Positions 4,541-28,134 of a DNA stretch of 28,134 nt are shown piece by piece (position 1 is the first letter of the stretch; each line of letters begins with the position of its first letter). The notes beneath the pieces were generated by a model. It made no database searches. It saw only the letters and a list, made by a program, of their open reading frames with translations, and had not been told where the DNA came from. The DNA is from a virus: the IMG/VR virus record IMGVR_UViG_3300036985_001348, positions 1 through 28,134 of that record. One strand, 5' to 3'. Both the position numbers and the translations under genes were made by a program.

Positions 4541-5694
4541 TAGAATACACGCCAGTATTCGCCGCAAATAAAGAAGCTTACGATAGCGGGCTGTATAGGT
4601 TTATTGGCAATGAGGGTAGCAGTAGAAGCAGTAAATCTTATTCATTAGCGCAGTTAATTGTAGTGATTGCCATGACTGAAAAGCGCGAGATTACAATTAC
4701 TGGCCCATCGTTACCGCATTTGAAGCGTGGTGCTATGAAGGATGTTTTGGATGTTGTGAAAGGCTGGGATCTGTATAAAGAAGATAACCACAACAAGACA
4801 GATCAGATACTAAAATTCCCATCAACGGGAAGTTACATTGAATTTTTTGGTATTGAAGATGTGGGCAAACTAAGGGGGCCAGGGCGTGATATATTGTGGA
4901 TGAACGAAATGAACCTACAACCAAAAGCAGCTTACACGCAGTTATCTTTAAGAACGAGAAAAACTATATTTGGTGATTGGAACCCAGCAGATGAATTCAG
5001 CTACGTTTACGAATTAGCCGATAGGGAAGGCAATAAAAAGATACATTCAACATATCTAAATAATTTGCAATTCCTTACGCAAGAGCAGATAAATGAGATT
5101 GAGAGCCTACAAGATGCAGATGAAAACTTATGGAAGGTGTTTGGCCTTGGGTTGCGTGGAACATCAACAGAAACGATTTACACGCATTGGAAAACAATAG
5201 ATCATTTCCCAGATTGTGATAGGGTTGTTTATGGTTTGGATTTCGGTTTTAATCATCCAAACGTATTAACAAAGGTGGGGCTTATGGATGATAAGTTGTA
5301 TATTGAAGAAATGATTTACGAAAGTAAACTAACAACAGATGATCTTTGCTATGCCATTAAAGCATTAGGTTTAAACGCAAGCCATAAGATTTATTGTGAT
5401 TCTGCACGGCCAGATACCATCGAAGAAATGAACCGCGCGGGGCTTTGGGCGGTATCTTCTAACAAGTCTGTATGGGATGGAATACAGTTCGTAAAAAGTA
5501 AGCCGCTTTATATTACGAAAAATTCTATAAATTTGTTGAAAGAAATTAAATCGTATAAGTGGATGAAGGATAAAAACGACATTGTACAAGAACAACCCGT
5601 TAAATTTAAAGATGATGGGATGGATTCAATGCGTTATGCTGCGTTCACTGAATTTTCACAACCTTTAATTACATACGCCGGTGCAGATTATTAG
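4522..5694 (+). CDS. terL: Terminase large subunit
   Basis: The ATP-driven DNA packaging motor and headful/site nuclease, 390 residues. ATPase features: Walker A-type GNEGSSRSSKSY (29-40), Walker B ILWMNEMN (124-131) with catalytic glutamate, and a coupling-like FGDWNPADEF (150-159). RNase H-like nuclease: YGLDFGFNHP (Asp240), IYCDSARPDTIEEM (Asp293) and DDGMDSMRYA (Asp365/Asp368), giving the expected acidic cluster. The motif set is closest to the PBSX/Terminase_3-type group. It begins within the preceding methyltransferase gene and its own end overlaps the portal gene by 14 bases. Confidence 0.95.
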   Translation: MANSRVIEYTPVFAANKEAYDSGLYRFIGNEGSSRSSKSYSLAQLIVVIAMTEKREITITGPSLPHLKRGAMKDVLDVVKGWDLYKEDNHNKTDQILKFPSTGSYIEFFGIEDVGKLRGPGRDILWMNEMNLQPKAAYTQLSLRTRKTIFGDWNPADEFSYVYELADREGNKKIHSTYLNNLQFLTQEQINEIESLQDADENLWKVFGLGLRGTSTETIYTHWKTIDHFPDCDRVVYGLDFGFNHPNVLTKVGLMDDKLYIEEMIYESKLTTDDLCYAIKALGLNASHKIYCDSARPDTIEEMNRAGLWAVSSNKSVWDGIQFVKSKPLYITKNSINLLKEIKSYKWMKDKNDIVQEQPVKFKDDGMDSMRYAAFTEFSQPLITYAGADY

Positions 5695-6937
5695 TAATAA
5701 AAAATTAAATGATCTGCAAACGCAGATAAAAGCCCTGCAAACATCAACACTGATGGCACAGGTTTCTACTGTTAGCCAAACCATCTACCCAGTTTGGCAC
5801 GTTTGGCGTGAAATAGAAGCCTATCGGGTTATTGATGATGTTTACAGCGTTGTGAACAGATTGGCCAGAACAGCGGCAATGATTCCGTTTACTTTGTACT
5901 ATCCAGATACAGATGAAGATGTAGAGTTTGATAACCCAGCAGCCAAACTATTTAGAACCTTTACACTTGAAAAGAAGATAGAACTTTATACCCATTTGTT
6001 TTTAACGGGTGAATGTTTCTACTACAAGCAGCTATTTATTGGGGCCAATGCAAGGGTTGAATCTTTAGACCTTCTGCATTCATCATTCATGACATTGAAA
6101 CTTAACAAGCAATTCCCTTTTAGCATTGCTGCTTATGAGTATCAAGATGCAAACGCTGGTGTAGTAATTAACAACATACCAAAAGAAGAAGTAGCATACA
6201 TCAAATATCCGAACCCTTCGCCAGATTGGAACTACAGCAAACGCGGCCTTTCACCAATACTTGTATTGGCGCAAACACTAACAAGACTGCAAGCGGGTAG
6301 AGATGCCAGCGTTGCGCAAATGCAAAACGGTGGTGTGCCAGGAATATTATCAGTTAAGGACTTACGCCATGATACTACCAGCAAACCAGTGATAGGGGCA
6401 ATAAAAGATAACATTGCCCGCTTTATGGGTAATTCAAACAACAAAGGCGCGCCAATGATTATGCCTGGGGATATGAACTACATTCCCTTAGGTTTGAAGT
6501 TGGCGGATATGGAAGTTGCAGAACTTGCTGCCATAGACTTTAAAAAGATATGCAATGCCTACAGCGTTTCAGATGTGTTGTTTAATAACGATTCAAGCAG
6601 CACAGAAAGCAACGTAAAAGAAATGGTGCGATTGATGTACACTAACGCGGTGTTGCCCGTTGTTATGATGGTGCGCGACTGCTTTAATAACGAAGTATTG
6701 CCAAACTTCAGCGGCAGGCCGATTGCAATAAAGTATGATGTTTCAGAGGTAACAGAGTTGCAAGATGATATGAAGGCAAAAGCAGATGTATTTGCCGCAT
6801 TGCCGGTTATGATTCCCAATGATGTTCTTGAAGCATTTGGCTACCAAAGAGATGAACGGCCCGAAATGGATATGCCGTTTATTAAATCGGGTTACAGTGC
6901 TATTGATGATTTTGAACCGCTACCAGATATTGAGTAA
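5681..6937 (+). CDS. Portal protein (HK97/phage_portal family)
   Basis: A 418-residue portal subunit, the ring through which DNA enters and leaves the head. Typical features are DDVYSVVNRLARTAAMIPFT near the N-terminus, LYTHLFLTGECFYYKQL (phage portals often have a similar 'LLLTGNAY' element), a stem and crown segment with LSPILVLAQTLTRLQAGRDA, MQNGGVPGIL, and IDFKKICNAYSVSDVLFNN followed by ESNVKEMVRLMYTNAVLPV near the C-terminal wing. Length is in the usual range. The start overlaps terL, and the 3' end overlaps a small ORF leading to the MuF gene. Confidence 0.92.
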   Translation: MQIISNKKLNDLQTQIKALQTSTLMAQVSTVSQTIYPVWHVWREIEAYRVIDDVYSVVNRLARTAAMIPFTLYYPDTDEDVEFDNPAAKLFRTFTLEKKIELYTHLFLTGECFYYKQLFIGANARVESLDLLHSSFMTLKLNKQFPFSIAAYEYQDANAGVVINNIPKEEVAYIKYPNPSPDWNYSKRGLSPILVLAQTLTRLQAGRDASVAQMQNGGVPGILSVKDLRHDTTSKPVIGAIKDNIARFMGNSNNKGAPMIMPGDMNYIPLGLKLADMEVAELAAIDFKKICNAYSVSDVLFNNDSSSTESNVKEMVRLMYTNAVLPVVMMVRDCFNNEVLPNFSGRPIAIKYDVSEVTELQDDMKAKADVFAALPVMIPNDVLEAFGYQRDERPEMDMPFIKSGYSAIDDFEPLPDIE

Positions 6938-14032: not shown

Positions 14033-14680
14033 TTGCCTGAATTGTGGGCAATCTACGATGCAGCGGAAGGCGTTACGGGTACAACATCCGTAACAGCGTG
14101 GGCAGATCAATCTGGAAACGGAAACAATCTAACATTGGCAAACCCAGTGAACCCGCTTGAACTTGTAGCAGCTGAAATAAATTCGCTGCCAGCAATTCAT
14201 AGCAAATTTACGGGTGCTTACGGTGCTTTTTTATCTGGTACAAACGCATTGCCAGCATTTACAACGGGTGGCGTAGTTTGGGCAGTAGTAAAGCAAACAA
14301 CGGCCGATGTTTCAATAAATTCTGGTGTTACTAACTTTATGCAAGGCGGTTCAGAATTTGAGATTAAAAGGCATAATTTGGCAATCCCAGGCGCAATATG
14401 TGCGACTGCTTTAGGTTCTGGATTGGCTGGCGTTGCTGCTGCTAACAATGTTTATCACATCGTTAGAATGGTTGTTACAACAACTAATATGAAGTTGGCC
14501 ATCAACAACGGTACTGAAGATGTAGAAGCAGTGTTTAACACGCCAGCGGTATCAACTTTAACGATGTTTGGACAAGGTGATAAATACATTGCTTATGTTG
14601 CAATAGCAGCAGATTTGCCAAGTAACAATGATGTTACACAAATGGAGGCTTATTTAAATACAAAGTTCAATGTTTATTAA
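14033..14680 (+). CDS. LamG/concanavalin-like domain, probable C-terminal readthrough extension of the tail tube protein
   Basis: About 215 residues with the opening of phage LamG-like lectin domains: PELWAIYDAAEGVTGTTSVT, then the hallmark AWADQSGNGNNLTL, LPAIHSKFTGAYGAF, a long beta region (VVWAVVKQTTADVSINSG), and IAYVAIAADLPSNNDVTQ followed by a final EAYLNTKFNVY. These domains bind carbohydrate or decorate tails. It is in the same frame as the tail tube gene, separated by a single UGA (14018). The only separate start is TTG 14033 (or CTG 14021), without a visible ribosome binding site; the first in-frame ATG is far inside the domain. A fusion by readthrough is therefore more likely than an independent gene; a recent nonsense mutation is the other possibility. 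Confidence 0.72.
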   Translation: MPELWAIYDAAEGVTGTTSVTAWADQSGNGNNLTLANPVNPLELVAAEINSLPAIHSKFTGAYGAFLSGTNALPAFTTGGVVWAVVKQTTADVSINSGVTNFMQGGSEFEIKRHNLAIPGAICATALGSGLAGVAAANNVYHIVRMVVTTTNMKLAINNGTEDVEAVFNTPAVSTLTMFGQGDKYIAYVAIAADLPSNNDVTQMEAYLNTKFNVY

Positions 14681-15026
14681 AATAAAGGAACAAGGTTTAA
14701 GGTTTGACAACTACTGCTGGAATGAGTATGTAAAGAAAGTTGATTGGGAAAACTTAGCCGGCAGTAGTAATCAAGCGGCTATGTACGGGGCAATGAAAGC
14801 ATCTGCATACTTTGACGGTGTTGAATTACCAACTTGGCGCGAAGCAGGGGTTTTTATTACATCGTTAGAAGTAGAAGAAATGCAAAAGTTTGTAGCATCA
14901 TTTGAGGCTATGAATGAATGGAAGCAGTTTCTTGATTTGGCAAAGCAAACGATTGAAGAACAAACGCCGGCAGAAGCAAAAAAAAAGCCTTTGAAGGTAT
15001 CCGGCAAAACTACGAAACGGCCTTAG
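14670..15026 (+). CDS. Tail assembly chaperone (gpG-like)
   Basis: A 118-residue chaperone that coats the tape measure before tube polymerisation. It begins MFIKIKEQGLRFDNYCWNEY and continues NLAGSSNQAAMYGAMKASAY and EVEEMQKFVASFEAMNEWKQ, ending in a lysine-rich tail that contains the slippery run. Position between tail tube and tape measure is diagnostic. The last codons after the slip site (KPLKVSGKTTKRP) are only present in the unshifted form. Confidence 0.85.
   Translation: MFIKIKEQGLRFDNYCWNEYVKKVDWENLAGSSNQAAMYGAMKASAYFDGVELPTWREAGVFITSLEVEEMQKFVASFEAMNEWKQFLDLAKQTIEEQTPAEAKKKPLKVSGKTTKRP
14978..14987 (+). other. -1 programmed frameshift site (A9G)
   Basis: Nine A followed by G (zero-frame codons GCA AAA AAA AAG CCT) near the end of the gpG-like gene. 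Moving to the -1 frame reads AAA GCC TTT GAA and opens a 104-codon extension, as in lambda G/GT and related phages. Confidence 0.85.
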
Positions 15027-15301
15027 GCTGGTTAGGCTGGACAGAACGTGAATATTATACAAGTAGCCCAGAAGCATTTTACTATGCCAGCAAGGGCTAT
15101 TTTGCTAAAAGGCAAGAGGATATGTTGATAACAAGATTTTCAACATACATCATAGCAGCCAGCAATGTAGGCACAAAGGCTTTGGGTAGTATTGATAAGG
15201 TTTGGCCATTAAGTAGCGATGGCAAAGTGGTTGATAAAATGGATGCCACAAGGATTGAAAATATTAAGAAACGATATAAAATAAGAACAAATGCCAGTTG
15301 A
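14987..15301 (+). CDS. gpT-like extension of the tail chaperone, made by -1 frameshift
   Basis: The frame has no proper start of its own and reads AFEGIRQNYETALGWLGW, TEREYYTSSPEAFYYASKGY and FAKRQEDMLITRFSTYIIAA before a TGA at 15299. The W-xx-E-YYTSSPEAFYYA pattern is typical of the T part of G-T chaperones, which recruit tail tube subunits while the G part binds the tape measure. The fusion would be about 210 residues. The stop overlaps the tape measure start by 11 bases. Not visible as an ATG-started gene, so likely missed by automatic annotation. Confidence 0.82.
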   Translation, partial: AFEGIRQNYETALGWLGWTEREYYTSSPEAFYYASKGYFAKRQEDMLITRFSTYIIAASNVGTKALGSIDKVWPLSSDGKVVDKMDATRIENIKKRYKIRTNAS

Positions 15302-26886: not shown

Positions 26887-26903
26887 ACGGTTAATTACTT
26901 TGG

Positions 26904-26992
26904 GCGGTGGATAGGATTCGAACCTACATTCCGCTGCTACGATGCAGCGTTGTTACCCTTGATGGTTTTTAAGCCATTTACACCACCACCGC
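26904..26992 (-). tRNA. tRNA-like element, non-canonical
   Basis: Read on the minus strand: 5' GCGGTGG pairs perfectly with 3' CCACCGC (an extra G-C pair outside is possible). A canonical T-arm GTAGG-TTCGAAT-CCTAT precedes the 3' acceptor strand. A perfect stem CGCTGC / GCAGCG with loop ATCGTA lies four bases upstream of the T-arm. The total, 89 bases, is long; the D region holds about 17 extra bases, including a hairpin ATGG / CCAT with a CTTAAAAA loop. The loop on the CGCTGC stem is six bases (eight if the inner pair opens), not seven, so no anticodon can be assigned safely. CCA is not encoded. It may be a degenerate tRNA, a long-variable-arm tRNA with odd folding, or a structured leader of the next gene. 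Confidence 0.5.
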
Positions 26993-26997
26993 CGTTT

Positions 26998-27028
26998 AAA
27001 AAAATGGCATACATTAACCGGTATGCCA
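26998..27028 (-). terminator. Intrinsic terminator of the minus-strand recombination operon
   Basis: TGGCATAC (27005-27012) pairs perfectly with GTATGCCA (27021-27028) around an eight-base loop. On the minus strand it is followed by seven T (A-run 26998-27004). It lies 19 bases after the stop of the gene at 27047. Confidence 0.85.
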
Positions 27029-27554: not shown

Positions 27555-28134
27555 TTATTCGGGTATCGCTTCGGCCATAATAAGATTGTAGCGGAATGTG
27601 GCTGCTTCAACAAAGCTGGCATCTTTGACAATGTAGGCAGGTAGTATCTTCTTAAACTCTTTTAGTTCATCTACGGTTGTGAGCAGCGTTAACTTATCCT
27701 TGGCGTGTTTTATTTCTTCCTTGTTTGTTGCAGATTCTGTAGGTGTAGATTTCTTTTCTTTTACTGCTTGTGGTGCTACCGCTTTATTTGCATCATCATC
27801 TTCAGCACCGATATTAACTATTGACTGCAAAGCGTAACGCCTGGCGTAACTAAGGCCGCTGCCATGCCTTTGAGCATCGTTTACTTTATCAACTACTATT
27901 CTGGTAAGGCTGCTTATAAATTCGCCAGAATTGTGCAGTAATATTGTTTCTACAAAATCGCAGCCATCAATAACAATGGTAGGCTGAATAGCACAAATAC
28001 CGTTCCGGTTAAGCACTGGTAAAACTGCTTCGCGAATTGCGTTTAAATCGGCATAAGTTTTCTTAAAAAATGGGTTAATTGCATCCTTTGTGGCATTGCC
28101 CATTTCGGATTGCGCTTGCACTAATGCAGCGGCA
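27555..28134 (-). CDS. ERF-family single-strand annealing protein, partial at window end
   Basis: The visible 192 or so residues run off the window: in-frame codons upstream of the apparent GTG (28121) read AAALV without a stop, so the true start is outside. The ERF signature is clear: QSEMGNATKDAINPFFKKTY, ADLNAIREAVLPVLNRNGI, LHNSGEFISSLTRI and RHGSGLSYARRYALQSIVNI, GAEDDDANKA. ERF proteins anneal complementary single strands in phage recombination and circularisation. The C-terminal tail (KKILPAYIVKDASF and so on) is likely a partner-binding region. It is in one operon with the 27047 gene (23-base gap). Confidence 0.92.
   Translation of the reverse strand, partial: AAALVQAQSEMGNATKDAINPFFKKTYADLNAIREAVLPVLNRNGICAIQPTIVIDGCDFVETILLHNSGEFISSLTRIVVDKVNDAQRHGSGLSYARRYALQSIVNIGAEDDDANKAVAPQAVKEKKSTPTESATNKEEIKHAKDKLTLLTTVDELKEFKKILPAYIVKDASFVEAATFRYNLIMAEAIPE

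Follow-up and report, generated by a model that had tools for sequence, protein, structure and literature searches.

A conserved tRNA-like element without a regular anticodon arm in a phage-like genome

Background

What is a tRNA-like sequence that keeps the two ends of a tRNA, and whose middle offers no regular anticodon arm? The question is raised by one locus of a 28.1-kb virus record (IMG/VR IMGVR_UViG_3300036985_001348, positions 1 to 28,134, the whole stretch being called the window in what follows), whose open reading frames, on inspection by eye, resemble those of a small tailed phage. What phages gain from their tRNA genes has long been debated. RNAs that keep the signals for processing enzymes, synthetases and nucleases and have no loop for decoding would allow the supply of codons to be told apart from roles as decoys or against defences, and would open the matter to direct test. 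We take the element for a tRNA-derived RNA under selection, one that probably does not decode, and propose a conjectural role for it.

Results

The element and its parts

An earlier note had placed an odd tRNA-like element at 26904-26992, with no strand. The element is there, on the minus strand, and a further outermost pair, 26993:26903, extends it to 26993-26903, from G-1 (26993) to the discriminator C73 (26903). The 5' strand of the acceptor stem, GGCGGUGG with G-1 included (26993-26986), pairs along its full length with the 3' strand, CCACCGCC (26910-26903): the stem, announced as perfect, has seven base pairs, eight with G-1:C73. The dinucleotide UG separates it from the D region, GUGUAAAUGGCUUAAAAACCAU (26983-26962), which aligns with the Leu-type D-arm of a more distant counterpart, L107. 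Alignment with L107 also delimits an unpaired linker, CAAGGGUAACAA (26961-26950). Next come a 6-bp stem, CGCUGC/GCAGCG, with loop AUCGUA (26949-26932), in the place of the anticodon arm or of the variable arm; a short linker, GAAU (26931-26928), whose U could form a Levitt pair with A15; and the T-arm, GUAGG-UUCGAAU-CCUAU (26927-26911), with five pairs, one of them G-U. The 6-bp stem is as perfect as first described, its loop having 6 nt, or 8 nt when the C-G pair is opened. C73 is followed by CAAAG, without an encoded CCA.

The D region can be read as a D-loop with a hairpin of four pairs (26977-26962) inside it, or else as a D-arm of Leu type that has been enlarged (GUG/CAU). The extra hairpin of the earlier note, AUGG/CCAU, can form, but its pair probability is just 0.24-0.36 and it lies outside the minimum-energy fold of the element alone; since it is identical in two close copies, covariation is uninformative there.

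Detection and folding

The tRNA model of Rfam (RF00005) gives the element 30.5 bits, for a cut-off of 29 and an E-value of 2.5e-6 for the record; the features of the model that are present are the 7-bp acceptor, the 5-bp T-arm and the UUCRAAU loop. ARAGORN calls neither a tRNA nor a tmRNA in the window, and Rfam finds no match to tmRNA (RF00023) there. The covariance-model check proposed in the earlier note thus ends with no canonical tRNA with a normal anticodon being called. The same combination, RF00005 above its cut-off and ARAGORN silent, holds for the copies in L003 (29.8 bits) and L107 (38.4 bits).

The predicted folding of the window element beats all of 200 dinucleotide shuffles (z = -3.4), and that of L003 is less striking (z = -2.1, 8 of 200 shuffles being as good). 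In both, the 6-bp stem has pair probabilities of 0.91-0.99; those of the T-stem are 0.37-0.45 in the window and 0.65-0.84 in L003. The two possible D-stems have ensemble probabilities of 0.00 (UGU/ACA) and 0.03-0.04 (GUG/CAU). By itself, such modelled thermodynamics is less firm support than conservation.

A close copy with paired changes

The element recurs at the same place in another phage contig (L003/L004), and seven of the 91 bases differ between the window and L003. Four of the seven differences amount to two T-stem pairs swapped on both sides (U-A/C-G and G-C/A-U); the three others are a G-C to G-U change in the 6-bp stem, a C/U difference in its loop, and one in the short linker, which reads GGAU in L003. 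None of the 19 pairs of the acceptor, the 6-bp stem and the T-stem is broken. When seven random transitions are simulated, 23% of the outcomes keep all 19 pairs, and 0.1% also give two doubly changed pairs. The 52 leading bases of the 91 are identical, in an enclosing 535-bp match of 84.9% identity. The genes directly upstream differ between the window and L003/L004, and the element has thus been retained while its surroundings were reshuffled.

Two other accounts of these data were rejected. Chance origin is contradicted by the E-value of the RF00005 match together with a conserved copy with paired changes. The other is protein coding, and four of the seven differences alter a residue in the frame that enters the downstream 123-aa gene; purifying selection on a protein is thus unseen, and coding does not account for the conservation. 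In the window, this frame, which runs through the T-arm into the gene, opens past an in-frame TAA and has no ATG, GTG or TTG before the ATG of the gene; in L004, a GTG within the element opens the same frame (139 aa).

A distant counterpart in the same slot

The comparison with related phages that had been called for thus finds the element kept in L003/L004, and it also yields L107, found by a search with the 54-residue tail of a recombinase gene. L107 has a 95-nt tRNA-like element with a Leu-type D-arm GCGGAAUUGGUAGACGC, acceptor ACGGGGG/CCCUCGU, A73 and T-arm GCAGG-UUCAAAU-CCUGC. It ends 15 nt ahead of the ATG of a different gene, encoding a MIAANELRIGN-type protein; the gap from element to ATG is 15-16 nt in all three copies.

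All 12 acceptor and T pairs are held across the three sequences, four with two-sided changes; the seven acceptor pairs are among them, two being changed on both sides with respect to L107. On this set of three sequences, two of them close copies, and with no covariation in the D region or the middle, the covariation score is equalled by 6 of 500 shuffles, and a slid structure pairs just 44-57% of the cells. The similarity between window and L107 is reached by none of 2000 single-base shuffles for the whole element, by 14 of 5000 for the 5' part and by none of 5000 for the 3' part, the ends having to be read in the knowledge that any two tRNAs share some of them; in the middle region, the similarity is not significant alone (671 of 5000). 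Linker and L107 have UAACAAC in common, a motif that extends one base into the 6-bp stem. A tRNA origin is suggested by the Leu-type D-arm of L107.

On the minus strand, the window has in order a gene for an ERF recombinase, a 161-aa gene, a hairpin, the element, a gene with a NUMOD1 domain and an 80-aa gene. The terminator-like hairpin (27028-27005), recognized by a consensus scan, is followed by a T-run that ends 4 nt ahead of the element (27028-26998 in all). It is present in the window, L004, L107 and L002, with a T-run of just four T in the last two. In L002, the hairpin precedes the L107-type gene, with the NUMOD1 gene after it, and the element is missing: of the four records found with the hairpin site, three carry a tRNA-like element. 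When the window is compared with L002 by BLAST, the match breaks off at 27001 and picks up again at 26902, close to the ends of the element, and modules are exchanged at a point upstream.

Two observations concern this region in its own right. Between 27044-26998 of the window (minus strand) and 4551-4597 of L002, a U-A pair of the hairpin has become G-C in L002. And the 54 C-terminal residues of ERF (window 27558-27719, minus strand) are common with a different recombinase-type protein of L004 and L002, the identity of the tail to the window being 91% in L004, 85% in L002 and 87% in L107, directly before the same hairpin; by its sequence, this shared tail marks an apparent recombination joint inside a gene.

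The neighbouring NUMOD1 gene

The gene downstream (26886-26515, minus strand, 123 aa) has its ATG 16 nt past the element and is probably a neighbour rather than a part of it. The domain that had been read in it is there, barely (Pfam PF07453, 23.0 against a cut-off of 22.8 bits), but no nuclease domain exceeds its cut-off. The pairing of tRNA and mobile gene suggested by the earlier note reduces to position: element and NUMOD1 gene occur together in the window and L004 only, the element of L107 precedes another gene, and L002 has the NUMOD1 gene with no element, so that the element is not tied to this gene. In L002, the NUMOD1 gene is directly followed by a GIY-YIG endonuclease gene (5365-5727; Pfam 27.2 against 22.6 bits), in whose place the window has the 80-aa gene.

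The anticodon question

We scanned the middle regions for an anticodon arm, that is, a stem of 5 bp (or four of the five), a loop of 7 nt, U33 and a purine at 37. There is no match in the window, and one four-of-five match each in L003 and L107; three control tRNAs (two tRNA-Leu, one tRNA-Tyr) have a five-of-five arm directly past the D-arm. None of the window, L003 and L107 has a proper 5-bp/7-nt anticodon arm. The middle of the window element consists of the linker, the 6-bp stem with its six-base loop and four bases; that of L107, of a linker, a 7-bp stem that closes 19 bases, and two further bases, although the Rfam alignment can fit in a 5-bp anticodon stem, AUACG/CGUGU, with a very large loop.

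The window loop being CAUCGUAG or CAUUGUAG, a threonine anticodon NGU would need an extra base. An eight-base loop with CGU/UGU can be read in the window and in L003, not in L107. The frameshift-suppressor-like tRNA proposed in the earlier note is thus possible, but weakly placed: the anticodon needs its extra base, and the shift in the tail chaperones looks like an ordinary -1. A gene resembling those of tail-assembly chaperones, named by eye, lies at 14670-15299, with an A-run near 14980 and then a -1 frame open to about 15299; it carries a probable -1 frameshift. A +1 suppressor for these genes was considered and rejected, since past the A-run the overlap is read on in the -1 frame, where no +1 suppressor is needed.

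Searches for further copies

Three DNA pattern searches recover the known relative. The first adds only L005, a chance match where acceptor and T-arm are absent; the second only L088, a match inside a coding frame; the third nothing. Among genome contigs, no copy is found by DNA pattern or via the phosphoesterase protein, and there is none near the 161-aa gene among the best 80 of 107 relatives. BLAST of the element returns 107 phage and 10 plasmid records, all partial and none covering 80%, several of the phage matches falling on annotated tRNA-Pro genes, at their T-arm end. With the L107 element region as query, BLAST returns 17 phage records, all partial; relatives of the gene that follows it are found in 10 phage records, and in the five regions examined no annotated tRNA adjoins the gene.

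Over 93 distinct records, RF00005 exceeds its cut-off in five: the window, L004, L107 and two tRNAs called by ARAGORN (Met and Gly). A model built from the three copies (window, L003/L004, L107) finds no fourth copy over 94 loci, with two chance-level matches of 14.8 and 14.6 bits; over 24 records it has three added weak matches, of 15-22.9 bits, one being an ordinary tRNA-Tyr and one overlapping an annotated protein gene. Among the matches listed in the open PMC literature, which leaves most subscription journals outside its scope, no description of such phage RNAs appears in the text available.

A second group in phages of Lactobacillales, Enterococcus and Listeria

The 5' part of L107 matches ordinary tRNA-Leu genes, and an unannotated element in Weissella and Pediococcus plasmid records, both with phage terminase genes nearby. 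A search with the plasmid element returns 65 phage records, including phages of Enterococcus, Leuconostoc, Lactobacillus, Listeria and Weissella; the matches listed are mostly short pieces, one of the 65 covering 80% of the query, so that not all 65 need carry the element. Eleven elements, called A9, were aligned: nine from the 65 phage records and two from the plasmids, two of the eleven being read by eye (L120:114-228, L124:1494-1608, L125:145-259, L126:194-314, L127:24-229, L128:195-302, L129:195-321, L130:132-229, L131:195-400, L132:200-307 and L133:130-233). In these elements, an acceptor of 7-8 bp is followed by UG and a D-arm built around GAAUAGGUA.A; the middle spans 42-150 nt, and after it AU or GU leads into a T-stem of 6 bp, whose loop is UGCAAAU, and then into the other strand of the acceptor.

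With the two ends joined, two-sided changes affect 11 of the 17 pairs (37 cells), and none of 500 shuffles reaches any of five measures, in an alignment that includes the near-identical pairs L120/L124 and L127/L131 and whose outermost pair fails in 6 of 11 rows. ARAGORN makes no call on these elements, and every Rfam match to them stays below the cut-off of its family, the highest being rliG for a section of L126 (29 of 55 bits) and, for L120, SpF41_sRNA (25.8 of 52). The scan for anticodon arms, L124 and L131 left out, gives four-of-five matches in four of nine elements (L127, L128, L129, L132). Judged by sequence, A9 looks like an unannotated tRNA-like class in its own right. ARAGORN having missed all the elements described here, more may remain unannotated.

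In L128 and L133, the A9 element sits between tRNA-Arg genes. In L128 (Lactobacillus phage Lenus), a second odd tRNA-like stretch can be read by eye at about 305-388, between two tRNA-Arg genes, and a similar one in L133 at about 235-320: the acceptor and T-arm are plausible, the anticodon region is enlarged, and ARAGORN is silent.

Does the window element belong to A9? A profile of the class gives it 13.7 bits (E-value 0.11), L004 no match, L107 31.2 bits, and two tRNA-Leu controls 31.1 and 19.6 bits; the profile is imperfect, since two members of the class itself, L127 and L129, are recovered only as fragments. A third stem common to the variable domains in A9, L107 and the window is suggestive only, since just two of the 12 (L126 and the window) beat 95% of the shuffles, L107 being equalled by 126 of 2000. 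As the profile does not recruit the window element, A9 is an analogue of it, not a proven family: membership of the window element is not supported, and that of L107 is not distinguishable from plain descent from a tRNA-Leu.

Discussion

What the element could do

Pairing of the ends, conservation via paired changes, and a site with a terminator-like hairpin on one side and a start codon on the other are established. We tentatively favour, at somewhat less than an even chance, a tRNA-derived phage RNA that keeps the acceptor, the T-arm and probably the D/T elbow without a normal anticodon arm, and acts in trans as a mimic. It keeps features that we take to be those recognised by RNase P, CCA addition and EF-Tu. 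It would be excised by RNase P and 3' processing enzymes, as a tRNA is, and would have CCA added; it may then accept an amino acid and yet not decode, since such signals for charging as it has are found outside the anticodon: G-1:C73, which in E. coli signals histidine, in the window and L003, and A73 with A14, signals for leucine, in L107. According to the portions of the source available, leucine identity in E. coli depends crucially on A73 and not on the anticodon, the anticodon arm of tRNA-Leu is dispensable for aminoacylation, and A73 and A14 serve without an anticodon; G-1:C73 is needed for histidine, and on a minihelix it confers histidine acceptance (PMC9976931). The same portions report that the histidine anticodon also matters in vivo (PMC9976931), a point against the reading favoured here, and the C73 of the window speaks against leucine charging there.

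A mimic that does not decode would act as a decoy or competitor at tRNA-handling proteins, candidate targets being the anticodon nucleases of anti-phage defences, synthetases and EF-Tu. Phage-borne tRNAs are described, in the text available, as countering tRNA-cutting defences (PMC10264068; PMC11555353); since this role is established, a decoy is our first choice. Against the mimic stand the terminator-like hairpin directly upstream and the fact that L002 lives without the element.

The main rival, unlikely in our view, is a leader or processing site acting in cis: a fold before the start codon would hold translation back pending the action of RNase P or a synthetase, or would mark the place of a cut by which the downstream mRNA gains a free 5' end. 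The constant short gap to the ATG suits such a role, and tRNA-like leaders exist, such as the thrS operator; the yjdF riboswitch is also described as having a tRNA-like fold. However, the downstream gene differs, a NUMOD1 protein in one case and a MIAANELRIGN-type protein in the other, and L002 has both genes without the element. Of the tRNA-mimicking leader guessed at in the earlier note, we favour the mimic and hold the leader less likely. We consider it improbable that the element is a working odd tRNA, for example a tRNA-Thr with CGU/UGU in an eight-base loop and a hairpin in its D-loop. In its favour, the sole loop change between copies (C to U) affects only the wobble base of NGU, the triplet has a U before it and an A after it, G1:C72 and C2:G71 of the window are the threonine identity pairs of E. 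coli, and the elbow bases U8, A14, A15, GG and U48 can tentatively be placed. Yet the loop has six or eight bases, never seven, the D-stem has at most three pairs, with the very low probabilities given above, and L107 has no such loop in the same slot. Codon use in the phage (ACA 33.9 and ACG 10.2 per thousand) points neither way when read without the host.

There is also the hypothesis of a decaying tRNA gene, acquired from a host and now drifting, raised in the earlier note; we give it the same low standing as the odd tRNA. A score of about 30 bits is low beside the 49-73 of seven full-length canonical tRNAs, yet two tRNAs called by ARAGORN have just 36.9 and 40.1, and the absence of the element from L002 would suit a loss. 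The two-sided changes in the T-stem, with no pair broken in the tested helices, are hard to reconcile with drift, and so is the identity of the leading bases in a more divergent match, which recombination could also account for. As for a site of attachment or recombination, where the phage would keep a tRNA-like sequence in order to integrate or to exchange modules, the breaks of the L002 match near the ends of the element and the exchange point upstream invite the idea. But attachment sites usually contain just the 3' half of a tRNA, here both acceptor strands are kept, and no integrase is seen in the lists of open reading frames read by eye; we hold this very improbable.

Comparison with known systems

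The element in the window is neither an ordinary tRNA nor plain decay, nor is it a proven new system, and its likeness to A9 is one of architecture only. Both have the acceptor, UG, the D-arm and the T-arm, and in both a variable domain stands where an anticodon arm would be; A9 has a T-loop UGCAAAU on a 6-bp stem, against UUCGAAU on 5 bp in the window. We put forward as a doubtful conjecture that phages of unrelated hosts encode unrecognised, non-decoding RNAs in the shape of a tRNA that serve as decoys while infection lasts, the window and L107 forming one branch and A9 another. Members of such a class would have intact acceptor, D and T arms, a fast-changing domain would replace the anticodon arm, and they would be made, and perhaps charged, as tRNAs are.

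A class II tRNA-Leu resembles the counterpart in L107 in length and D-arm, and differs in having a proper 5-bp/7-nt anticodon arm; the window, in addition, has C73. The tRNA-like domain of tmRNA (RF00023) also has an acceptor and a T-arm with an elbow and no anticodon arm, but here neither ARAGORN nor Rfam calls a tmRNA, L107 has a Leu-type D-arm, and there is no room for a message part. The structures of TYMV type in plant RNA viruses are, as far as the accessible descriptions go, viral mimics of tRNA with an elbow and an N-1:N73 pair recognised by HisRS. They belong to RNA genomes and have a pseudoknotted acceptor, whereas the window is that of a DNA phage with a plain acceptor helix. The nearest in proposed function are the phage tRNAs that face anticodon nucleases: as described in the text available, protection comes there from an altered anticodon loop or from extra supply (PMC10264068; PMC11555353), and such tRNAs are annotated by ARAGORN and tRNAscan-SE, a normal loop having been changed, whereas in the window the anticodon arm is unrecognisable and ARAGORN is silent.
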